This document shows positions 1,368 to 19,766 of a stretch of 21,199 nucleotides of DNA, piece after piece (position 1 is the stretch's first letter; every line of letters begins with the position of its first letter). This stretch comes from Methanothrix sp. (GTDB lineage: Archaea > Halobacteriota > Methanosarcinia > Methanotrichales > Methanotrichaceae). The DNA lies in contig JAJRAX010000005.1 of NCBI GenBank assembly GCA_028679775.1, forward strand, positions 1-21,199. Reading direction: 5' to 3'. The translations under genes and the position numbers were made by a program. A model generated the notes under the pieces. The model worked only from the letters and a program-made list of their open reading frames with translations, had not been told where the DNA came from and ran no database searches.

Positions 1368-1431
1368 TTCGCGGATGTAAACGACTCGATCCGCTGATTC
1401 AACGGAAGATCAATGAATGGGAGGACTTATA

Positions 1432-1695
1432 ATGAAGAAGCTTGCAGCAATTATGCTTGTAGCCCTGATGATGCTATTCACAGCGGCCAGCGTATTTGCG
1501 TCGGAGGACGCTGAAGAGACCAATGAGACAGAAGTCGCTTCTGCTGAGGACGTCGCTGAAGAGGCAAATGAGATAGAAACCAACGAATCTGCAGAGAAAG
1601 AGACTGAGAGCGAACCCGCTCCCGGATTTGAGAGCATCTTCGCCATTGCCGGCCTTCTGGCAGCCTCAAGCCTGGCCCTTGGCAGACGAGAGTAA
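1432..1695 (+). CDS. Mini PGF-CTERM surface protein (signal peptide, acidic stalk, anchor)
   Basis: This encodes 87 aa from the ATG at 1432, chosen because GGGAGG (1419-1424) lies 7 nt upstream; an in-frame ATG at 1417 would overlap that site. Residues 1-23 are a signal peptide beginning MKKLAAI like the upstream S-layer protein. Residues about 24-62 are almost entirely Glu/Ala/Thr/Asn with N-glycosylation sequons (NET, NES). Residues about 64-87 are a PGF-CTERM tail, PGFESIFAIAGLL and so on, ending GRRE. Nothing is left for a folded domain, so the mature product would be a short, strongly acidic, possibly glycosylated and lipid-anchored peptide. The ends match the neighbour closely, which suggests a duplicate that lost its globular domain or a dedicated surface-coat peptide. 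The function is unknown. Confidence 0.8.
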   Translation: MKKLAAIMLVALMMLFTAASVFASEDAEETNETEVASAEDVAEEANEIETNESAEKETESEPAPGFESIFAIAGLLAASSLALGRRE

Positions 1696-1743: not shown

Positions 1744-3435
1744 TTAAATACCATCATTCAAAATACGCTGATCGCAAATTCCATTTTCCGAACCAAAGAC
1801 GCATTCTACGAGCTTTCTGGTATAAGGATGCATGGGATTGCTGAGTACTTCATTTGTAGCTCCAATCTCCACGATCTGTCCCTTCTGCATGACTGCCATG
1901 TGATCGCTGACTTTTCTCGCTAAAGCTATGTCGTGCGTTACAAATAGCATTGTCAAACCCATCATTTCTTGAAGGTTCATCAACAGCTTCAAGATCTTAG
2001 CCTGAACGCTTGGGTCCAGTGCTGATGTAGGTTCATCTGCAACCAAAAGCTTCGGCCCAAGAGCTAGAGCCCTGGCGATCGCCACCCGCTGCACTTCGCC
2101 GCCACTCAATTGATGTGGATACCTAGAAAGAAAATCGTCATCAAAAGGCAATTCAACGTGCTCGATGACATTTATTGCCCTCTTTCTCCGGTCCTCTTCG
2201 CAGCCCATTCTCTGCACCACGAGTGGTTCCATGACTGCATCCAGCACACTCACTCTATGGCTGATGGACTCCTTGGGATTTTGAAATATCATCTGCACCT
2301 TCCGATAGAACTCCAAGCTCCTTATGCCAACCTCTCTTCCTTCCAGCCGGATCTCTCCTGAATCCTCTTCGTAGAGGCCCATGATGATCTTGGACAGAGT
2401 GGTCTTGCCAGATCCGCTCTCTCCAACAATTGCCATCGTCTCTCCTTCATAAAGAGTCAGATTTATGTCCTGCAAAGCAATAAACGAGTCAAAGCGTTTA
2501 GAGAGGCCCTTTATCTGCAGCAGCGGAAGAATGCCACCTCGATGGCAGGCGATCAGGCTTCCGTTTAGCCTCACAAGCTCAGGAACAATTCTCTCGCAAA
2601 TCTCGATATGCTGCGTGCAGCGCTGATGGAATGGGCATCCTGCCAGTCCAAGAGTCATGCGGCCGGGAATGCCCTGAAGGTCTTTGGTCGCGTTCAATTT
2701 AAGAAACGATCGCAAGAGACCGCGGGTGTAGGGATGCCGAGGATCTTTAACCAGTTTTTCGGTCTTTCCCTGCTCGATAATCCTGCCGGCGTAAAGCACT
2801 GCCATCTGATTGGTGAGAGCCGAGGCCAAAGAGATATCGTGAGTGATTAAAAGAGACATTCTTCCAGACATGGCAAAAGCAAAAAGCTTTATGATATTAG
2901 CTTTGGTAAGAGGGTCCAGTGATGCAGTTGGCTCATCCAATATTAAAAGATCTGGATCGTTTGCCAAGGCCATGGCGATGAGAACCCTCTGTCGTTCTCC
3001 CCCGCTGAGTTGATATGGATAGCTTCTGCCTTTATTCCTGGAAAGCCCAACGGAAGTGAGCAGTCCTGAAACCCGTTCATCCAGAGCTTTTTTTTCCGGC
3101 CTGCTGTGACAGAGAATGGCTTCTTTTATCAGATCCTCAATTCTGTAAACTGGATCCAGGGCATCCTCCACGTTCTGAAAGACCATCGCCATATCTTGCC
3201 CACGAATCTTTCGATACTCTTGCTCTGAGATATCCAGAAGATCTCTGCCCAGAAAACTGATCTCACCAGATGCACTGCCTGAAAAGAGTCCCATGATTGC
3301 AAGAGCAAGTGTGGTCTTTCCGGCTCCAGATTCACCAACAACCGAAATTGAGTCGCCCGGCATCAGGTCCAAATTTATTCCCTGCAGGATCTCAGACTTG
3401 CCGAAGGAGACACAGAGATTCCTGATTCTCAACAT
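1744..3435 (-). CDS. Fused double ABC ATPase of a peptide/nickel-type importer (DppD-DppF-like)
   Basis: This cytoplasmic ATPase (563 aa) should power the two permeases encoded just upstream. It carries two complete ABC modules. Module 1 has Walker A GESGAGKTT (34-42), signature QLSGGERQR (142-150) and LLILDEP (163-169). Module 2 has GESGSGKTT (338-346), QLSGGEVQR (442-450) and LLVADEP (463-469). An oligopeptide/dipeptide C-terminal segment between them (about 230-300) holds Cys267, 273, 280 and 297, the spacing seen in DppD/OppD-type proteins and possibly a metal or Fe-S site. Most relatives use two separate ATPases; here they are joined. The start is the ATG at 3435, preceded by AAAGGAG; it overlaps the end of the upstream permease by 7 nt, implying translational coupling. 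The reading frame extends to 3564, but that part lies inside the permease gene. The substrate cannot be read from the ATPase. Confidence 0.92.
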   Translation of the reverse strand: MLRIRNLCVSFGKSEILQGINLDLMPGDSISVVGESGAGKTTLALAIMGLFSGSASGEISFLGRDLLDISEQEYRKIRGQDMAMVFQNVEDALDPVYRIEDLIKEAILCHSRPEKKALDERVSGLLTSVGLSRNKGRSYPYQLSGGERQRVLIAMALANDPDLLILDEPTASLDPLTKANIIKLFAFAMSGRMSLLITHDISLASALTNQMAVLYAGRIIEQGKTEKLVKDPRHPYTRGLLRSFLKLNATKDLQGIPGRMTLGLAGCPFHQRCTQHIEICERIVPELVRLNGSLIACHRGGILPLLQIKGLSKRFDSFIALQDINLTLYEGETMAIVGESGSGKTTLSKIIMGLYEEDSGEIRLEGREVGIRSLEFYRKVQMIFQNPKESISHRVSVLDAVMEPLVVQRMGCEEDRRKRAINVIEHVELPFDDDFLSRYPHQLSGGEVQRVAIARALALGPKLLVADEPTSALDPSVQAKILKLLMNLQEMMGLTMLFVTHDIALARKVSDHMAVMQKGQIVEIGATNEVLSNPMHPYTRKLVECVFGSENGICDQRILNDGI

Positions 3436-4292
3436 TGTTCTTGGCTCCTTTCCAAAGGTCCGGGCACAAGCCTCGGGTCCATAGCGGCCTCCAGAGAAAA
3501 ACCAATGAAGCAGAGTGCTACCAGGGTCAAAGATAAAGCCAAACCCGTAGGAAGTAGCCACCATTTCCAGACATCCAAATATGTAAAATCAAGAGCCTGG
3601 TGTATAATCTTGCCCCAGCTTATGGTCATGGGGTCCGAGACCCCCAAGAAGCCCATGCCGGCCTCCATGAAGACAGCTCTCCTCGCGTCCTGAACAGTCA
3701 TAGCCATAATCAGAGGGCTAAGTTCCGGGGCGATGTGGCTCTTGAAGATGTGCATGCAGCCTGCCCCAAAAGTCTGAGATGCATAAATGTGCTCCCTCTC
3801 TTTCAGGCTCAAAACCTGAGAACGAATGATCCTTGCACCTTCAGGCCAAGATAAGAGGGATATCATCAGAATAGTAATCAGAAGATTTGGCCGAATGTAA
3901 GCCGCCACCAGAATCATCACGATGATTGGGGGAACAGAGTACATGGCATCAACAATCCGCATCCAGATGCTCTCATATATCCCGCCGATCAATGCAGCCG
4001 AGGCTCCCACCAGAACGCTTAGAGTGATAGAGATGACGGCGACGCCAGCGGCGACGATCAGCGTGGTCCGCGCCCCGTAAAGAAGCCTGCTCCAGATGTC
4101 CTGACCCAGAGAATCCGTTCCCAGCGGATTCATTAACGATGGGCGACTGAATATATGGCCTGTATAGCAGTCGGGCGAGAAGAATGTGAGCACAGGTGCA
4201 AGGACGGCCATGAGCACAATTGTCGCGAGAATGAATAGCCCTGCAAGTGCCAGTCGATCGGAAGCTACCGCTCTGAATGGATCAATGTGCAT
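3429..4292 (-). CDS. ABC importer permease, DppC/NikC-like
   Basis: This inner-membrane permease (287 aa) has about six helices. The N-terminal helix (about 15-36) is followed by the typical MNPLGTDSLGQDIWSRLLYG segment (54-73) of the DppC/NikC branch. The ATPase-contact EAA loop is near residues 171-190 (ASQTFGAGCMHIFKSHIAP), with the usual Gly and the downstream hydrophobic/Pro pattern. The gene overlaps the preceding permease by 11 nt and the following ATPase by 7 nt, so the three form one tightly coupled leftward operon. The ATG at 4292 has a GAGGGTGAG ribosome site just upstream. By family it pairs with the DppB-like subunit to move a small peptide, a nickel chelate or a similar ligand delivered by the binding protein at 7188-8741. 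Confidence 0.92.
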   Translation of the reverse strand: MHIDPFRAVASDRLALAGLFILATIVLMAVLAPVLTFFSPDCYTGHIFSRPSLMNPLGTDSLGQDIWSRLLYGARTTLIVAAGVAVISITLSVLVGASAALIGGIYESIWMRIVDAMYSVPPIIVMILVAAYIRPNLLITILMISLLSWPEGARIIRSQVLSLKEREHIYASQTFGAGCMHIFKSHIAPELSPLIMAMTVQDARRAVFMEAGMGFLGVSDPMTISWGKIIHQALDFTYLDVWKWWLLPTGLALSLTLVALCFIGFSLEAAMDPRLVPGPLERSQEQC

Positions 4293-5265
4293 ATCTCACC
4301 CTCGGATCGAGCTTGCTGTAGAGAAGGTCCACAAAAAGGTTGACAGTCAGAACGAGGACCGTCAGCAAGAGCAAAATTCCCTGAAGCAGCGGATAGTCTC
4401 GAGAATTGAGCGCTGTATTCAGTAGCGATCCAACTCCGGGATAGGAGAAGACGATCTCTATGAAGAGCGTCTGGATCAAAAGATGGGGGATGCGCATTCC
4501 CGTCTCTGTGACAACAGGAAGTAAAGAGTTCCTGCCACTGTGAGCATATTTCACTTTAAATTCCGAGCACCCGATGGCACGAGCAGTCATGATGAATGAC
4601 TCTGCCAGTATCGATATGGCTGTACTTCTGGTGATGAGAAATGTATCACCCACCAGCACCAAGACCAGTGCAGCTACCGGAAGAGCCAGGTGACTGCACA
4701 GATCCTTTAAATAATCAAGACCCTCCAGCCCGGAGTAGGGAGTGATTGCGCCGAAGAGGGGAGCCCAACCCAAGCTCACACCAAATATCAAGAGCAACAA
4801 TATGCCCATGAAAAACATCGGAAAGCCACTCAAGAACATGAGCGAGGCGGTTAGTCCGCGGTCCAGCAGCCTGCCCCGTCGGCTGGCAGCCTCAATTCCC
4901 ATGATGACACCTATTACAGTAGCTATCGCCAGGGCCAGAAGTGTGAGGAGCAGCGTCCAGGGCAAAGCGCCCATGATAACCGCAGATACCTGATCTTTAT
5001 AATAATACGAAAAACCAAGATCGCCATGCAAAAGACCCATGAGATAAGCAGCAAGCTGATCCGTCCAGGTTCTGTCCAGAGCAAACTGCTTGATCAAATG
5101 AGCCTCCATCTCAGCAGTCATGGAAACCAGTGCCTCGTCGCCATAAATGGCATGCAACGGGTCCCCTGGCATCAAGCGTGGCAGCGCAAAGTTTAGTGAG
5201 AATATGGCGGCGAGTGCTGCTACATAGTTGAGAATCAGCCCTCTGCCAGGAAGATCGTTTTTCAT
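4282..5265 (-). CDS. ABC importer permease, DppB/NikB-like
   Basis: This is the first gene of the leftward operon, a 327-aa membrane permease of the DppB/NikB type. Features include an N-terminal helix, the LPRLMPGDPL segment (29-38), the LDRTWTDQLAAYLMGLLHGDLGFS-type periplasmic region (63-86), and an EAA loop around MTARAIGCSEFKVKYAHSG (about 225-245). The C-terminus, SKLDPRVRYAH, is characteristic of this subunit. The ATG at 5265 has AGGAATAGGA upstream. About 240 nt separate it from hxlR, and this gap carries a TATA-like box and the left copy of the duplicated element. Gene order permease-permease-ATPase without a binding protein means the operon depends on the divergent unit for its receptor. 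Confidence 0.92.
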   Translation of the reverse strand: MKNDLPGRGLILNYVAALAAIFSLNFALPRLMPGDPLHAIYGDEALVSMTAEMEAHLIKQFALDRTWTDQLAAYLMGLLHGDLGFSYYYKDQVSAVIMGALPWTLLLTLLALAIATVIGVIMGIEAASRRGRLLDRGLTASLMFLSGFPMFFMGILLLLIFGVSLGWAPLFGAITPYSGLEGLDYLKDLCSHLALPVAALVLVLVGDTFLITRSTAISILAESFIMTARAIGCSEFKVKYAHSGRNSLLPVVTETGMRIPHLLIQTLFIEIVFSYPGVGSLLNTALNSRDYPLLQGILLLLTVLVLTVNLFVDLLYSKLDPRVRYAH

Positions 5266-5503
5266 TTGCTGATCCTATTCCTCTTCATCTAGATCGAATT
5301 GCTTTTTGGGTTGCGTTTCATCATCACAAATCCAATCTGAAATAAATGGGACAAAGACTAATTATACTCATTTATCTTCGAGCCAACTCTACAGAGCACC
5401 TGCTTGATTGGAGTATTTTAACTAAGAAGTTTAGAATTTTGTAGTCACTATAATCCTGGATAGCATGATTCTGGATTGGCTTGGCATGTATCGTCCTTCA
5501 GCC
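5266..5503. other. Leader and promoter region of the permease operon
   Basis: This 238-nt gap separates the permease operon (leftward) from the end of hxlR. It contains the left copy of the 20-bp element (5427-5446) and, on the minus strand, the box TTAAAATACT just after it (5413-5422). Transcription from that box would begin near 5390 and give a leader of about 120 nt. No small ORF or convincing hairpin was found in the leader. Confidence 0.5.
5427..5452 (-). promoter_or_regulatory. Left copy of the duplicated operator-like element (permease operon)
   Basis: AAGTTTAGAATTTTGTAGTC (5427-5446) is the exact reverse complement of 5939-5958. Allowing one mismatch, the identity extends to 26 bp (5427-5452 against 5933-5958). 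Read toward the permease gene, it is followed after 5 nt by TTAAAATACT. It contains an imperfect dyad (TAGAA-TT-TTGTA), as expected for a dimeric winged-helix repressor. Confidence 0.75.
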
Positions 5504-5914
5504 TCAGTGATTTGTGATATGATCTTGGGCCGGATAGACCCACATTGGAACAGGCAGTCTCTGACAGACCTGATGACTTTCCTCTGATTTTCCTTTTCTG
5601 GAGGCAACCCAATTCAATAGAGGTATCAAGACTGAATCTCTAAGCTCTGTTCCATCGTTTGTGAGCACATACTCAACTCGTGGAGGTATTTCGGCAAATG
5701 ATTCTCTCTTGATCAAGCCTTCGGCTTCGAGCTCTTTTAGCGTATCTGACAGAGCTTTTGGGCTGATGTCAAGCAGAATATCCATCAATCCACCAAACCT
5801 TAGCCTTTCGTGATAGCCGATGGCATTGATTGTGAGGAGAGTCCATTTCTTTCCGATAACGCTTATCGTGCGCCTAAGCGGACAGGTATCGATATATTTA
5901 CATTTTTCATTCAT
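5504..5914 (-). CDS. HxlR-family winged-helix transcriptional regulator
   Basis: This 136-aa cytoplasmic DNA-binding protein has the classic HxlR start: CKYIDTCPLRRTISVIGKKW (residues 5-24), with Cys5 and Cys11. A recognition-helix region around ISPKALSDTLKELEAEGLI (50-68) and a wing near PPRVEYVLTNDG (77-88) follow. The family acts as dimers; members sense aldehydes, redox state or other small molecules, and N-terminal cysteines are often the sensor. The last 25 or so residues, after the usual family end, include Cys117. It lies between two divergent halves of one ABC system, and identical elements flank it, so it very probably represses or activates both units and itself. The ribosome site (GGGAAAG) is weak. 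Its ligand is unknown; a metal or thiol-reactive signal is only a guess. Confidence 0.9.
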   Translation of the reverse strand: MNEKCKYIDTCPLRRTISVIGKKWTLLTINAIGYHERLRFGGLMDILLDISPKALSDTLKELEAEGLIKRESFAEIPPRVEYVLTNDGTELRDSVLIPLLNWVASRKGKSEESHQVCQRLPVPMWVYPAQDHITNH

Positions 5915-5932
5915 AGTAATACTTTCCCAATC

Positions 5933-5958
5933 TATAGAGACTACAAAATTCTAAACTT
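5933..5958 (+). promoter_or_regulatory. Right copy of the duplicated operator-like element (fmdE/hxlR promoters)
   Basis: GACTACAAAATTCTAAACTT (5939-5958) is the exact inverted copy of 5427-5446. It precedes the TATA-like box of the rightward unit by a few nt, and lies 25-44 nt before the hxlR start codon on the other strand. It could therefore control fmdE and hxlR at once, including autoregulation. Confidence 0.75.
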
Positions 5959-5962
5959 AATT

Positions 5963-5973
5963 GCTTAAATACT
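5963..5973. promoter_or_regulatory. TATA-like box shared by the divergent fmdE and hxlR promoters
   Basis: GCTTAAATACT reads as a TATA box rightward (start near 5990-6000, leader about 35 nt). Leftward it reads AGTATTTAAGC, which would start hxlR transcription near 5940, inside the operator-like element. The left module has the equivalent TTAAAATACT at the same distance from its element. Confidence 0.55.
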
Positions 5974-6031
5974 TTTCATTGGGATAGAAACCGATCGAGA
6001 GAAGATAAAAGCTCCATTGATGGGTGCAAAT

Positions 6032-7138
6032 ATGAATAAAAAGATAATCACGTTGATACTGCTCATAACCATGATGCCTGGAATCGTTTTGGCACAGAGC
6101 GCTGTGAGCGAGAGCACAATTGTAGATGAGCTGGGATCTAAAGCAGCCAAAATTGCGATGGAAGAGCTCAAGTTTGAGAAAGGTGACCGCAATATTCTGG
6201 CATTAACCGATGCAGGATATGCAGAGGTCAATGGCCTGACCACCCAGGAAGCATTGTCGGGAATTGCCAAGGAGACCGGGATGAATGAAGGAGATGGCAA
6301 CTTTTTTCGTGTCCTTCGAGCTAACAACAAGCCTTTGTGGTTCTTCTTTTTTAACAAGGCAACAGGCTACGCCATCTATATAGAAGTCGAAGACAAATCC
6401 CTCAAAAGATCTTCAGACGAGTTTGAAGCTATGAGCAATGATCAGATCTTTTGCAAAATCTCCAGAGCTAATGCAGATCTCAGATACCTGCTAAACCACA
6501 CAGATGAGGGAAATGCGACCTTTAACGGAAAGGCCTTTAATGGCAATGAATTCGCATTGGTGGGCATAGCCAATATCTGGGCACAGCCGCAATCGACCTT
6601 TGACTTCCTGCAAGCAGCATGCTTTCACGACCACCTCTGCCCAGGCGTAACAGGCGGCTATATGATTGCTAAATATGTTGAAAAGGTGCTGCCAATAACC
6701 AACGGTAGCGAGAGCTACAAGGTAATTGCAATTCCTCAGTGGTGCAAAGATGATCTTTTGCAGCTTCGCTGGGATGCAACGCCCGGCAAGAGCGGCATGT
6801 TCGTCATGGCGCTGACAGATGCCGAAGAAAAAGCGCTCAATCTCAAGTATAAAACAGATGTATCCGGCATCTACGTTCGCTGGAATGAGACTGCCAAAAA
6901 GGGAGATGCTCTCGTTTTGGGATTCAACTGGACCACTATGTACAACCTGACTGGAACAGACAACTGGAAGGGTCCATCCTGGGCCACTATGCTGGTCATG
7001 GACATTAGGATGATGGACTACTGGAACCGACCAGAAGTTGCCATATCCACACTAAAGGAGTTCACGGTGGATCAAGATATGCTGGCGATGATGCAAAACG
7101 CAGGCATGCATCCACTTAAGGTAGCCGGAGTACTGTAG
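6032..7138 (+). CDS. Secreted FmdE-domain protein
   Basis: This 368-aa protein begins with a signal peptide (MNKKIITLILL to MPGIVLA, cleavage near residue 21). The ATG at 6032 is preferred over the TTG/ATG at 6017/6020 because GGGTG lies 5 nt upstream and the signal peptide then starts cleanly. Residues about 22-180 are a domain I do not recognise. From about 188 the FmdE hallmark appears: Cys197-x-His199-Asp-His201-Leu-Cys203-Pro-Gly205, with Cys238 (PQWCKDD) downstream. FmdE domains are known from a cytoplasmic formylmethanofuran dehydrogenase-associated protein and bind metal through these Cys/His residues. A secreted version next to an importer receptor suggests an extracellular metal- or cofactor-binding role rather than methanogenesis itself. 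It shares an operon with the binding protein 49 nt downstream. The substrate is unknown. Confidence 0.85.
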   Translation: MNKKIITLILLITMMPGIVLAQSAVSESTIVDELGSKAAKIAMEELKFEKGDRNILALTDAGYAEVNGLTTQEALSGIAKETGMNEGDGNFFRVLRANNKPLWFFFFNKATGYAIYIEVEDKSLKRSSDEFEAMSNDQIFCKISRANADLRYLLNHTDEGNATFNGKAFNGNEFALVGIANIWAQPQSTFDFLQAACFHDHLCPGVTGGYMIAKYVEKVLPITNGSESYKVIAIPQWCKDDLLQLRWDATPGKSGMFVMALTDAEEKALNLKYKTDVSGIYVRWNETAKKGDALVLGFNWTTMYNLTGTDNWKGPSWATMLVMDIRMMDYWNRPEVAISTLKEFTVDQDMLAMMQNAGMHPLKVAGVL

Positions 7139-7187: not shown

Positions 7188-8741
7188 TTGAAGAGAATAG
7201 ATCTAATTGTCAAAGGACTTCTATTATTGGCGATAACGCTGCTGATCTCCGGCTCCGGATGCGCAGATGAGAACGTGCCGATCTACACCATTGGTGACAC
7301 CACCGGCGATTGGGGATTTCCTTCGCCTTATGGACATTATGCTCGTGGTCCAGGGTACATAAGGATGAGCCTTATCTTCGATACGCTGGTCTGGAAAGAT
7401 GATCGCGGATATGTTCCTGCTCTGGCCGAGAGCTGGCAGATGGAAGGAAACGACGCATATGTCTTCAACTTGAGAAAGAACGTCACCTGGAATGACGGTG
7501 AGGTGTTCACCGCCAATGATGTTGTCTTCACCATTGACTACATCAAGCAGCACCCCTATTCGTGGGTAAACTCCAACCCCATAAAAGCGGCTGAAGCTCT
7601 GGATGACTATACTGTGAAGATCTTCCTGAATTATTCATATGCTCCTTTCCTGGAAATGATAGCGGGCACTCTTCCGATTCTTCCGGAGCATATCTACGAG
7701 GGTGTCAGCAATCCGGATGAGTTCCAGGACGACGACGCTCTTGTCGGCACAGGCCCATACAAGCTCGTGAATTACGACAAGACGCAAGGGACGTATCTCT
7801 ACGAGGCCTATGACGACTACTACCTAGGCTCTCCGAATGTGAAACAGATCCGGTTCGTGAAGATAAGCAATGAAATGGCAGCAGCCGCTTTAGAAAATGG
7901 TGACGTTGATGCTGTCGGTGTACCCGCAGAGACTGCGGATCAGCTCAAGACGGTCGGCTTTGTGGTTCTTGAGGGACCACGTGATGGAATCGCCAAGATC
8001 ATGGTCAACCACAAGAAAGAGCCTTTTTCGGACACCAGGTTCAGGCAGGCGCTGTATTATGCAATCGATCGCCAGGCTCTTGTGGACAACGCACTTCGCG
8101 GCTATGGCATCATCGCCAGCTCCGGGCTTTTCTCTCCGGATAGCGAGTGGTACAATCCAGAGGTCGAGCAGTACGATTATGACATGACCAAAGCGAAAGA
8201 TCTGATGTCTGAGATGGGCTACGCCACAGACGGGCAGTATTTCTCCAAGGCCGGCCAGACTCTTGAGATAGAGATGCTGGTTACCTCCTCAAACGAGCGT
8301 GTGGGTGAGATGATACGACAGCAACTCGATGCAGCCGGATTCAAGGTCAACCTGCGCAGCGTAGACTCAAAGACCCTCGACAGCCTTGTTGGTGAATGGA
8401 ACTTCGATCTCGCCCTGAACAGCCACGGCGGCATGGGGGGAGATCCAGAAATTCTCAACAGGATCATCGGCGAGGGCTATGCATTCAACAGCGCCCGCTA
8501 CACGGCAGATGAAAAGCTCAACGATCTCTTGAGTGACGAAGTCAGTGAGATGGACCCTGCCAAGAGAAAAGAGTTGGTATTCGAGGTCGAGGCTGTCCAT
8601 GCCCAGGATCTTCCATCTTTGCCCCTGTACTATTCGAATTCGTACTGGGCTCATGACGGCAAGGTGGATGCCTACTACACCAAGCAGGGAGTTGCCAACG
8701 GCATACCAATAGCTCAGAATAAGCTGTCTTTTGCGAAATGA
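7188..8741 (+). CDS. ABC substrate-binding protein, SBP_bac_5 (peptide/nickel) family
   Basis: This exported receptor (517 aa) should capture ligand for the permeases at 3429-5265. The TTG start is set by GGAGGA. Residues 1-24 are a signal peptide with a possible lipobox at SGSGC25, so it may be lipid-anchored; Gly at -3 makes that call weak. Family landmarks are LIFDTLVWKDDRGYVPALA (62-80), FNLRKNVTWNDGEVFTANDV (93-112), GTGPYKLVNY and RFRQALYYAIDR. It is full length for the family. Members bind oligopeptides, nickel chelates, heme and other ligands, and sequence alone does not separate them. Its neighbours (secreted FmdE protein before, CooC after) favour a metal complex. A hairpin plus T-run follows the gene. 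Confidence 0.92.
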   Translation: MKRIDLIVKGLLLLAITLLISGSGCADENVPIYTIGDTTGDWGFPSPYGHYARGPGYIRMSLIFDTLVWKDDRGYVPALAESWQMEGNDAYVFNLRKNVTWNDGEVFTANDVVFTIDYIKQHPYSWVNSNPIKAAEALDDYTVKIFLNYSYAPFLEMIAGTLPILPEHIYEGVSNPDEFQDDDALVGTGPYKLVNYDKTQGTYLYEAYDDYYLGSPNVKQIRFVKISNEMAAAALENGDVDAVGVPAETADQLKTVGFVVLEGPRDGIAKIMVNHKKEPFSDTRFRQALYYAIDRQALVDNALRGYGIIASSGLFSPDSEWYNPEVEQYDYDMTKAKDLMSEMGYATDGQYFSKAGQTLEIEMLVTSSNERVGEMIRQQLDAAGFKVNLRSVDSKTLDSLVGEWNFDLALNSHGGMGGDPEILNRIIGEGYAFNSARYTADEKLNDLLSDEVSEMDPAKRKELVFEVEAVHAQDLPSLPLYYSNSYWAHDGKVDAYYTKQGVANGIPIAQNKLSFAK

Positions 8742-8810: not shown

Positions 8811-9560
8811 ATGAAGATATTGATTTGCGGAAAAGGCGGAAGCGGAAAGAGCACAGTATCAGCACTATTGGCCCGAGAACTCTCAAAGAACGCAGACCGC
8901 GTCCTGGTGGTTGATACCGATGAATCCAACTTTGGGCTCTACAAGCAACTGGGTTTTGAGCAGCCCCGTGACTTCATGGAACATCTTGGGGGAAAGAAAT
9001 CTCTGACTGAGATATTGATGAAGTTCATCCGATCCGAAGGAAGAGAAGACCTGAAGATCCTGGATGAATTCGCTCCGGAAGACATTCCCAAGGAGCTCAT
9101 AGTCGGAGACGACGAGATAAAACTGATTGCCATCGGCAAAATTCATGAGTTTGATGAGGGCTGTGCCTGTCCGATGGGTGCACTTGCGAGGGAGTTTCTC
9201 GAAAAGCTCAAGGCCGACAGCTGGAACGTGGTAGTGGATACTGATGCAGGAATTGAGCATTTCGGTCGAGGCGTTGAGGCGGGCTGCGACAAGATCGTGG
9301 TTGTCGTAGATCCAAGCTTTGAGTCCGTCCAGCTCTCCGCCAAGATCTCAGAGATGGGTGCCAAGATTGGAAAGCCCGTCTATTTCATCCTCAATAAGAT
9401 GGATGAGAAGTCTCAGGAGCTGTCAAATCTGGTGGACAAATCTAGGGTGATTGGGACTGTGCCCTTTGATCAAGAGGTCTTCAAGGCCTGTCTGAAGGGT
9501 GAGAGAATACCCGCGATACCAGGGATAAAGCCAATAGTTGATCGACTGCTTGCAGCTTGA
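8811..9560 (+). CDS. cooC: CooC-type ATPase for nickel insertion into CO dehydrogenase
   Basis: This 249-aa cytoplasmic P-loop ATPase belongs to the MinD/CooC group. It has the deviant Walker A GKGGSGKST (7-15) with the signature Lys8, DTDESN (35-40), and DTDAGIEHFGRG (143-154). The CooC metal-binding pair Cys118-x-Cys120 lies in GCACPMG. Characterised CooC proteins bind nickel at the CxC of a dimer and use ATP to help build the Ni-Fe-S C-cluster of CO dehydrogenase, which acetate-using methanogens need as part of CODH/ACS. The ATG at 8811 is chosen because GGAG (8799-8802) is 8 nt upstream; the frame is open further 5' but without a ribosome site. It lies downstream of a transporter receptor and 9 nt before the flavin-reductase gene. 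The specific nickel role is inferred from the family. Confidence 0.88.
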   Translation: MKILICGKGGSGKSTVSALLARELSKNADRVLVVDTDESNFGLYKQLGFEQPRDFMEHLGGKKSLTEILMKFIRSEGREDLKILDEFAPEDIPKELIVGDDEIKLIAIGKIHEFDEGCACPMGALAREFLEKLKADSWNVVVDTDAGIEHFGRGVEAGCDKIVVVVDPSFESVQLSAKISEMGAKIGKPVYFILNKMDEKSQELSNLVDKSRVIGTVPFDQEVFKACLKGERIPAIPGIKPIVDRLLAA

Positions 9561-9569
9561 GAGGAATAT

Positions 9570-10172
9570 ATGATATTAAAAGCCAGTCAAAGGGAGAATA
9601 TCTTGCCCCTTCCAATAGTTCTGATCTCCACTATTTCTAAAGAGGGGATTAGAAATGCTGCCCCCTGGTCGAATTTTACGCCAATCCTTCGACCCCTGGA
9701 CGAGATCGTTCTCGCATCCTGGATCAAGCGAGACACATTGAACAACATTCGTCAGACTGGAGAGTTCGTGGCAAATATCCCGCCGGTTGGTATGGAAGAC
9801 GCTGTGATGGTCTGTGCCAGAAACTATCCTCCTGAGGTGGATGAGTTTGAAGAGGCAGATCTCAAAGCTCGTCCTTCGGTGAGGGTCAAGGCACCAGGAA
9901 TTGATGGCTGCCTGGCCTGGGCTGAGTGCACCCTCCAAGAGGAGATTGTGCGAGATAAATTCGTATTGGTCATAGGCAAGGTAGTGCACCTGGAGGTTGA
10001 CGATCGGTTCTTCAGTGTCCAGGGCGAGATGGACTTCCAAAGAGCAAAGCCTATGGGTGTGATACTGGGCCAGAATGGCATGAGCTTTACTTATCCTGAA
10101 TTTTCCGGAAGGCATGCTGAATACAAAGAGATGTTTCAAAGCCCTGCGATCCGGAAAAAGCAGTCCGTGTGA
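9570..10172 (+). CDS. Flavin reductase-like (FMN-binding split-barrel) protein
   Basis: This 200-aa cytoplasmic protein resembles the flavin-reductase-like/flavoredoxin family that binds FMN in a split barrel. Landmarks are PLPIVLISTISKEGIRNAAP (13-32), where the backbone contacts flavin in this fold, and the NIRQTGEFVANIP segment (60-72). The C-terminal part contains FSVQGEMDFQRAKPMGVILG. Members reduce flavins or pass electrons to partner proteins. Its start lies 9 nt after the cooC stop with GAGGAA just upstream, so the two genes are very likely co-transcribed. A redox role in metal-cluster assembly would fit this but is inference. The partner and substrate are unknown. Confidence 0.85.
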   Translation: MILKASQRENILPLPIVLISTISKEGIRNAAPWSNFTPILRPLDEIVLASWIKRDTLNNIRQTGEFVANIPPVGMEDAVMVCARNYPPEVDEFEEADLKARPSVRVKAPGIDGCLAWAECTLQEEIVRDKFVLVIGKVVHLEVDDRFFSVQGEMDFQRAKPMGVILGQNGMSFTYPEFSGRHAEYKEMFQSPAIRKKQSV

Positions 10173-18454: not shown

Positions 18455-18485
18455 AAAAAAATGATGAGAATGACCACTCTCATCA
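18455..18485 (-). terminator. Hairpin plus T7 overlapping the receptor stop codon
   Basis: On the minus strand TGATGAGA (18485-18478) pairs perfectly with TCTCATCA (18469-18462) across an 8-nt loop and runs straight into seven T (18461-18455). The first TGA is the receptor stop. The methyltransferase ribosome site begins 5 nt after the T-run. This is the strongest terminator-like structure in the window. Confidence 0.75.
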
Positions 18486-19766
18486 CCAATTTTTGTATTC
18501 GGGATATACGAAAGCACCTTGGTTTTTGATGTCGAAGTCTATGCGGCAGAAATTGTCTACATATTCTTGATGTATGGCCTCTGGATCAATATCCTGGAAT
18601 AGGTCGGGATAGAACAATTTTGCCAGGTAAGCAGTGCCAATGATGTTGTTTCCCGCGCCGAGCAACAATAGGTAGTCCAGACAATATACATCATCATTTT
18701 TTACTGCATCAACATTGGCAAGCTCAGTGCGATTCATGACCTGCTCTTTTGAGGCGATCATCTTGGTCAGGTCATTAGTCTCATAACCACCATCGCCATA
18801 GCTTTCAACGCCTACAAATATGTATTTTGGATTTTCTTTTGTCACGAATTCGGGTTGTACTTCCAGCATTGCACCGTATTTGGGATCATTCGGCCCTATC
18901 ACATCATCGAGGATATTTTTTCCTCCAGCCATCGTGATGATCTGACCGAGATTGCTGCCGGAGGCATAGCAGGAATAGGGTGTATACTCAAAGACGCATG
19001 TAGGCCTTTCTTCCTCCGGAATGGACTTCGTTCTGCTCGTGAATATGTCGTAGTACTTGGAATCCCAATCTATGAACCTCTCGGCCTCGGCCTCTTTGTC
19101 CAGAATATAACCATAGGTCCTTACATTCTTCACCAGTGTGTCCTGTTCGCGCATGTTGAGACAGATTAAAGGAATGCCATTGAGATTCTTCTCAAAGATG
19201 CGCTTCTGATCCAGGCCACCTATTAAGGCACTAGCTCGTTCGAGATTTGTCTGAACTGCATCTGGGTTCAAGCTGATGATCTTCTCGAAGTCGCAGTTGC
19301 TTGGGCTGTTCCCAACAAATGGCAGTTCTGCTAATTCCGGCAAAAACGTAATCTGTTTCGTTCTGTCTTGGCCATAGGCTACCAGTATGTCTTCAGCGTC
19401 CAAGATCCTGGTCATCTCAACTCCTGAATATCCCATGTTTACCAGGCGTTTGATGGGCTTGTTTACTGTTACATTCTCACCAAAAATATCTACAAATGTT
19501 AGCTTTTCTTCAGTACCATCCAGTATCTTTTGAAGCTGTTCTGTATCACTTCCATCGATCTTGCCATCAAAATTAGCATCGGCAAGTTTTGTGGCATCGT
19601 TTGTGCCCGACATTATGCCTTCAAGATACTGCAGATCGTCGTCATTCAGCAGATCGTCCATATTGGCGTTTCCGTAGATCTCAAGGACAAAGTCAGCAGC
19701 ATCCGCAGAAAAAGATGTCAGAACCAGGCTGATCAGTATCCAATCAAAGCAGCTTCTTCTTTCCAT
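18483..19766 (-). CDS. Dockerin-bearing metal/cobamide-type ABC binding protein
   Basis: This exported protein (427 aa) starts at the ATG at 19766, set by GGAGGA (6 nt upstream). Residues 1-24 are a signal peptide ending ADA. Residues about 31-84 contain two EF-hand/dockerin-like repeats: GNANMDDLLNDDDL and DANFDGKIDGSD, which normally bind calcium. Residues about 88-427 resemble the BtuF/FhuD-type periplasmic binding fold used for Fe chelates and cobamides: VTVNKPIKRLVNM, LNPDAVQTN, GSNLGQIITMAGG and NPKYIFVG. In methanogens similar dockerin-plus-receptor proteins are common. No permease or ATPase of this type is in the window. Calcium may let the repeats hold other surface proteins; no cohesin is visible here. 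Confidence 0.88.
   Translation of the reverse strand: MERRSCFDWILISLVLTSFSADAADFVLEIYGNANMDDLLNDDDLQYLEGIMSGTNDATKLADANFDGKIDGSDTEQLQKILDGTEEKLTFVDIFGENVTVNKPIKRLVNMGYSGVEMTRILDAEDILVAYGQDRTKQITFLPELAELPFVGNSPSNCDFEKIISLNPDAVQTNLERASALIGGLDQKRIFEKNLNGIPLICLNMREQDTLVKNVRTYGYILDKEAEAERFIDWDSKYYDIFTSRTKSIPEEERPTCVFEYTPYSCYASGSNLGQIITMAGGKNILDDVIGPNDPKYGAMLEVQPEFVTKENPKYIFVGVESYGDGGYETNDLTKMIASKEQVMNRTELANVDAVKNDDVYCLDYLLLLGAGNNIIGTAYLAKLFYPDLFQDIDPEAIHQEYVDNFCRIDFDIKNQGAFVYPEYKNW

Follow-up and report, generated by a model that had tools for sequence, protein, structure and literature searches.

The 20-bp sequence found in inverted orientation on both sides of an HxlR-type regulator gene in a 21,199-nt stretch of Methanothrix sp. 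DNA (the whole stretch that we analysed, hereafter the window) is best read as the operator of HxlR. It would serve autorepression of hxlR, it may also tune the divergent unit headed by an FmdE-domain gene, and a duplicated inverted copy of it would put the permease-ATPase genes (permBC-ATPase) under the same regulator; from sequence comparisons we put the probability of this reading as a whole at roughly two in three. Some of its parts stand firmer: the element is very probably the (predicted) operator of HxlR, and the right-hand copy is very probably the older one, the promoter-operator of hxlR itself.

Two inverted copies around hxlR

The forward strand reads AAGTTTAGAATTTTGTAGTC at 5427-5446 and GACTACAAAATTCTAAACTT at 5939-5958. 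The two are exact reverse complements over 20 bp, and if one mismatch is allowed the inverted match reaches 26 bp (5427-5452 / 5933-5958). In the outward direction a 5-nt gap (CTTAG) follows the left element and a 6-nt gap (AATTGC) the right element, and then come TTAAAATACT and TTAAATACT, respectively. In all of this the sequence bears out the description of the pair, TATA boxes included, in an earlier note on this DNA. The inverted similarity between the two sides of hxlR extends over 65 nt at 74% (5412-5476 / 5909-5973) and spans the region from the TATA box up to and including the hxlR start codon, so that the duplicated unit resembles the entire hxlR promoter. Four further inverted pairs found in the window (minimum length 17 nt) are 17-22 nt long.

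Allowing up to three mismatches, the 20-mer is present at only two places in the 2,342,195-base assembly (83% complete), while the reversed control pattern gives none. The genome-wide search proposed in the earlier note thus speaks against a general scattered repeat, and we rejected that candidate because the element has no further places in the assembly at this tolerance.

The outward box on the right, TTAAATACT, read in reverse gives AGTATTTAA, the TATA box of hxlR, and the start of fmdE lies 61 nt from it. Counted from the TATA boxes, the leader would measure ∼36 nt for fmdE and ∼125 nt, which is long, for permB; an alternative AT-rich box at about 5360-5366, noticed by eye, could serve permB. 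A search of the window for structured RNA returned no Rfam family at gathering scores.

Table 1. Features of the window discussed in the text, with coordinates, strand and the basis of each assignment. R1 is the profile of relatives' hxlR promoters described below.
Feature	Position	Strand	Basis
Right 20-bp element, core of hxlR promoter-operator	5939..5958	+	same site upstream of relatives' hxlR
hxlR promoter-operator, match to 47-position profile R1 (BRE-like part, TATA, operator)	5934..5979	-	26.2 bits, E 1.7e-7
Near-palindromic TATA box: TATTTAA toward hxlR (-), TTAAATA toward fmdE (+)	5965..5971	.	sequence reading; hxlR spacing
Left 20-bp element, exact inverted copy	5427..5446	-	sequence reading, assembly search
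Left copy, R1 match (positions 8-47; BRE-like part unmatched)	5412..5451	+	17.0 bits, E 1.3e-4
TATA-like box of left copy: TTAAAATA toward permB (-), TATTTTAA toward hxlR (+)	5414..5421	.	by eye
hxlR, winged-helix regulator with Cys11	5504..5914	-	PF01638, 67.7 bits (cut-off 20.8)
permB, Opp/Nik-type permease, first gene of left unit	4282..5265	-	PF00528
permC, second permease	3429..4292	-	PF00528, PF12911
Double ABC ATPase, dipeptide/nickel-transporter type	1744..3435	-	PF00005 in two stretches, PF08352
fmdE, FmdE-domain protein, first gene of right unit	6032..7138	+	PF02663; signal-like N-terminus by eye
Solute-binding protein (SBP), family 5	7188..8741	+	PF00496
cooC, CooC/MinD-like P-loop ATPase (name by eye)	8811..9560	+	PF01656
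flavR, flavin-reductase-like protein	9570..10172	+	PF01613

Elsewhere in the window, two secreted-looking proteins are encoded at 19-1263 and 1417-1695 (+), each ending in what we take to be a PGF-type C-terminal sorting signal. A periplasmic-binding-protein-like protein (PF01497) is encoded at 18483-19766 (-); by eye it carries N-terminal dockerin-type repeats, and it has relatives in loci L037-L039.

A profile of relatives' hxlR promoters

Upstream regions of 31 hxlR matches were examined for a common pattern, and most of them contain GAAAGTATTTAAaCTATCAAGTTTATAGTaATATAGTnACTAT on the strand of hxlR, with the ATG directly after it in some cases. The order within this string is a BRE-like GAAAG, a TATA box (TATTTAAA or TATTAATA) and then the operator. 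A draft consensus was matched at 29 or more of 43 letters in 26 of 29 relatives, and at only 18-25 letters in L108, L109 and L110. From the sites of the 29 relatives, 16 were chosen for diversity among those that fit, and their alignment gave the sequence-only profile R1, from which the window was left out.

With filters off, R1 finds two clear matches in the window, 26.2 bits on the right and 17.0 on the left, the third place scoring 4.7. Without its TATA part the profile gives 23.9 bits for the left copy and 19.3 for the right; the next-best place reaches 3.1, and 40 Markov copies of the window yield no more than 10.4 bits. For comparison, the best sites of relatives (those with a match) score 21.5-54.4 bits, versus 26.2 and 16.6-17.0 for the window copies. 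In the window's own genome only these two sites appear at E <= 0.1, the left one with E 0.0187. A search of 50 genomes yielded strong matches in seven genomes with this hxlR and weak partial ones (E 0.008-0.09) in G021, G037, G001, G005 and G006, which are without this hxlR, and at a second place in G003; by its E value the left copy does not rise above the stray matches of those five genomes. What makes it convincing despite this weak genome-wide value is where it lies and that it repeats the right copy exactly. Searches of more than 40 genomes were run with stricter filters, under which weak sites are lost, and the left copy is missing from the class-search output.

The element follows hxlR across genomes

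Relatives of hxlR were sought in the genus, the order, the class (237 genomes) and a sample of the phylum (392 genomes). In the genus, 21 of 26 genomes have a match at E <= 0.001, and close relatives (60-64% identity) occur in 4 of the 25 others. At E <= 1e-20, hxlR is present in 49 of the 237 class genomes and in 48 of the 392 phylum-sample genomes. Relatives apparently of the same type as the window's HxlR are known at the protein level only (P0001, 93%; P0002 and P0003, 78%).

The distribution of the element (E <= 0.001) over the class matches that of the gene closely: 46 genomes have both, 3 have hxlR alone, none has the element alone and 188 have neither. With the 16 training genomes taken out, the counts are 30, 3, 0 and 188. 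Conservation in relatives that keep hxlR, a comparison for which the earlier note had called, is therefore found in 46 of the 49 class genomes with the gene; and its proposal that HxlR goes with the element, and probably controls hxlR itself, is upheld at the level of sequence, as all 46 element-bearing genomes carry hxlR. No element was reported beside hxlR in G092, G106 and G124 of the class, the G106 contig ending ∼110 nt upstream of the match. Among the class sites, 47 of 48 lie within 150 nt upstream of hxlR on the same strand, and the 48th precedes an hxlR truncated by a contig end.

The phylum sample gives a similar picture, with 36 sites in 35 genomes; 34 of these sites adjoin an hxlR match. 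Counted by genome, 34 have both, 14 hxlR only and one the element only. The exceptions are G425, whose site scores 21.1 bits and which lacks an hxlR match at E <= 1e-20, and G253, where a second site is partial; it should be noted that 18 of the 35 element-bearing genomes of this sample overlap the class set. Such co-occurrence and adjacency mean that the element belongs to the hxlR promoter.

Promoter anatomy and dyad

In many relatives, both inside the class and outside it, the element sits between the TATA box and the hxlR start codon. Of the 54 rows of our spacing table, 17 have 27 nt between the end of the TATA box and the ATG, and 20, including the window (48), have 46-48 nt. The table omits L187; in 7 of the 54 rows (hxlR genes of genus groups g23 and g24) the upstream region does not fit the profile, and in one of these seven, L182, it is cut by a contig end. 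What we take to be the usual archaeal spacing places the operator over the expected hxlR transcription start, as expected of a repressor acting on its own gene.

The earlier note also described the element as an imperfect dyad. A dyad shows in the consensus of relatives, where the strongest, ACTAT-N7-ATAGT, scores 1.26, the 95th percentile over 300 column shuffles being 1.03 (36 distinct sites, from 37 of 50 profile matches); in the window itself it is weak, the arms being degenerate in both copies. Assignment of the right-hand TATA box to fmdE alone is not supported: the box fits the spacing to hxlR, and the element is missing at relatives' fmdE loci (17 upstream stretches inspected by eye and 8 loci by profile). 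As for the idea that an operator-plus-TATA module was copied in front of each operon, the left copy does head permBC-ATPase, while the right copy is the promoter of hxlR.

Changing partners on the outward side of the box

While hxlR is the constant partner of the box, the divergent partner changes between relatives. In 16 of 54 rows, and in L038 besides, a small Cys/His-rich gene lies divergent to hxlR, its start 34-65 nt away from the box. The encoded proteins (L037-L039, L082, L083, L098, L166-L169, L194-L200) have a common helical-looking C-terminus distantly like DUF5320, a resemblance that stayed below the cut-off in three of the four proteins tested, and are possibly metal-binding. Another partner is found in genus g38, where a relative of cooC is divergent and starts 84-113 nt away in 10 of 11 rows (L201-L207, L209-L211), with flavR behind it where the sequence was read. 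Several of these loci have HMA-like metal-chaperone ORFs nearby, as judged by eye; this arrangement is a second context in which the CooC-like ATPase is connected with HxlR. L036 has a divergent P-type ATPase that carries heavy-metal domains and lies further from the box, and FecCD and ABC genes lie on the hxlR strand in L038.

For the 15 element-bearing rows of g23, the ORFs listed include no divergent one of at least 45 residues with its start 130 nt or less from the box. The closest listed are 131-345 nt away, and none is listed for L178 and L181 (the latter near a contig end). Outward use of the box is therefore not general, and the box may serve two directions in some lineages. The candidate according to which the element serves hxlR alone, based on a lack of any outward gene in G007 and G018, was rejected, as a divergent 68-residue Cys/His-rich gene is present in both. 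A second type of hxlR in g23/g24 (L172, L174, L175, L189, L192) has a different upstream string, alike among its members (AAAGTATTTATAGGcgCAAGTATAAG in L172), and at some of these loci the divergent gene is thioredoxin-like or P-type-ATPase-like.

Neighbours of relatives' hxlR thus include Cys/His-rich proteins, a CooC-like ATPase, a flavin reductase, a heavy-metal P-type ATPase and a FecCD importer, and these findings tie HxlR to genes of a metal or redox type. Cys11 of the regulator lies within nearly invariant columns (at least 90%) of 19 aligned HxlR sequences. The conserved cysteine and the character of the neighbours together suggest that the signal of HxlR is linked to thiols or to a metal.

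Arrangement of the transport genes

A homologue of permB at E <= 1e-90 is present in 18 of 26 genomes of the genus, the window's own included. In all 16 relatives with a readable 5' end, trmO (identified by PF01980 in the L086 copy) lies upstream of permB on the same strand, 0-237 nt away; a 17th relative, L165, is without the 5' end and was left out of this count. The permB of the window has no trmO upstream. It heads a separate unit, divergent from fmdE, with hxlR in between.

fmdE and permB are on one strand in 4 of the 14 fetched fmdE or permB loci (L086, L214, L216, L217). In L214 (G002) the whole run of fmdE, SBP, cooC, flavR, permB, permC and ATPase is co-directional, and the SBP is of the window type (79%). 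Of the six other permB loci, five start with an SBP (58-62% identity) and L215 shows no SBP. The closest relatives of the window's fmdE-SBP-cooC-flavR genes are found in L084, L085, L087 and L088, with 62-74% for fmdE and 75-84% for the other three. permB is absent from the stretches read in these four, of which L084 and L085 end near flavR and L087 continues past flavR with a CDC48-type gene. The split of one operon is consequently not the sole possible history. We regard a simple split as weakened, both by the low number of joint loci and by the closest relatives without permB, and speak below of splitting or of a move.

The left copy

We scanned 68 loci totalling 566,619 bases, made up of the window, the neighbourhoods fetched around hxlR, and loci of fmdE and permB that have no hxlR. 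A second copy was seen only in the window, in a scan whose detection limit lies near the strength of the left copy, so that weaker ones elsewhere could escape it; a second R1 match in L208 is at the same place on the opposite strand. At core positions 8, 10 and 15 the two window copies have in common bases that are found in 1, 1 and 0 of 16 relatives, so that each is to be seen as a copy of the other. Positions 8 and 10 recur jointly only in L005 (G002), which holds the best HxlR match of the genus search. In its operator part the left copy resembles relatives' consensus more closely than the right copy does; the BRE-like part on the left is lost, the match beginning at profile position 8.

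Taken in the orientation of R1, the left copy is directed rightward, into the 3' end of hxlR. A 40-residue ORF at 5465-5587 (+), antisense to this 3' end, starts 18 nt past the left core, and its start mirrors that of hxlR relative to the core, both by eye.

Proposed mechanism and its rivals

According to our reading, a dimer of HxlR on the right operator would block initiation at hxlR and thereby give autorepression. The near-palindromic TATA box may be used backwards for fmdE-SBP-cooC-flavR, with HxlR tuning this unit from just upstream of the box. The permease-ATPase genes would have been parted from their usual upstream genes, either as an L214-like run was split around an incoming hxlR or as they moved, and an inverted copy of the hxlR promoter-operator would then have come to head permBC-ATPase, which would thus share its regulator with fmdE-SBP. 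That HxlR controls the two halves of the transport system is plausible, given relatives' co-directional permBC-ATPase genes and a second copy that, among the loci scanned, only the window has. A more specific version, in which a bidirectional switch with a shared TATA box was copied and flipped in one Methanothrix lineage once the permease-ATPase genes had been cut off, co-expression being repaired by promoter duplication, we offer tentatively and at somewhat less than even odds.

The strongest competitor would make the right copy purely autoregulatory and the left copy a decaying, functionless by-product of a local inverted duplication, with each transport unit having its own promoter. An element that tracks hxlR and no single partner gene, and that is lacking at fmdE loci elsewhere, would sit well with it, as would the missing BRE-like part on the left and an inverted similarity that takes in the whole hxlR promoter. 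Yet the left operator part has remained the nearer of the two to relatives' consensus (23.9 versus 19.3 bits) though the 65-nt repeat is just 74% alike, which suggests selection on the operator, and the copy stands at the head of a unit that is without its usual upstream gene; we consider a by-product unlikely. Another possibility is that the left copy works as an inward promoter, producing an antisense RNA or the 40-residue peptide (from ∼5465) into hxlR as an added layer of autoregulation. Loss of the BRE-like part on precisely that side, and the occurrence of such an arrangement in no other locus of the 68 scanned, weigh against it more heavily than the orientation of the copy and the mirrored ATG 18 nt past the core (by eye) speak in its favour, and it appears quite improbable. 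One could also imagine an hxlR cassette, mobile or phase-variable, with the copies as its terminal or invertible repeats, given a single gene between inverted repeats and hxlR neighbours that vary among genomes. This we rejected as hardly credible: the relatives that were scanned have one element each, as the promoter of hxlR, no recombinase was found among the ten window proteins scanned, no target-site duplication was seen by eye, and the element does not recur elsewhere in the assembly.

The operator reading that we prefer yields a specific, testable 47-bp prediction, at a widely conserved site, for a regulator present in 49 of 237 class genomes. Genetics is possible in Methanosarcina acetivorans C2A. 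A literature search, with subscription journals largely outside its reach, gave, among the matches listed, no description of an operator for any archaeal HxlR protein. The locus provides a concrete example of the way regulation may follow genes after they have moved apart, and, if the bidirectional-switch reading is true, one regulator between mirror-image promoters would keep the halves of a transporter in step.

Comparison with known systems

Sequence matches of the window's HxlR in the PDB are HxlR (7bze), YodB (5hs7), YybR (4a5m) and QsrR (4hqe). These MarR/DUF24 (HxlR-type) regulators of Firmicutes belong to the same Pfam family and likewise have an N-terminal cysteine. In the accessible part of one report, Cys11 of Bacillus subtilis HxlR reacts with formaldehyde and is crosslinked to Lys13 (PMC7835342); it aligns with Cys11 of the window protein, in which, however, the Lys13 partner is absent (CPLR). 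YodB, as far as the available text of PMC8063818 goes, senses via Cys6 and prefers the box TACT-N7-AGTA. The half-sites of this box are similar to those of the archaeal consensus dyad ACTAT-N7-ATAGT, but the spacing between ACT and AGT is wider in the archaeal one, and on this difference from the YodB consensus given there we rejected the notion that the two boxes are the same. Unlike the Firmicutes systems, the window regulator works in the setting of an archaeal TATA/BRE-type promoter. While B. subtilis HxlR is named an activator, the position of the site in the window system points to autorepression.

Prokaryotic bidirectional promoters are described, in the part of PMC12825309 that was available, as pseudo-symmetrical sequences that stimulate divergent transcription, and the near-palindromic box between close divergent genes in the window is alike in this respect. 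In contrast to such general bidirectional promoters, the operator here is conserved on one side of the box and tied to one gene, and outward transcription is putative. A thiol-based regulator of oxidative stress of the TrmB family is reported from Haloferax volcanii (PMC9426492, accessible part); judged by that text, it is likewise a small archaeal winged-helix protein, and is described as thiol-based, though it is of another family (PF01978).
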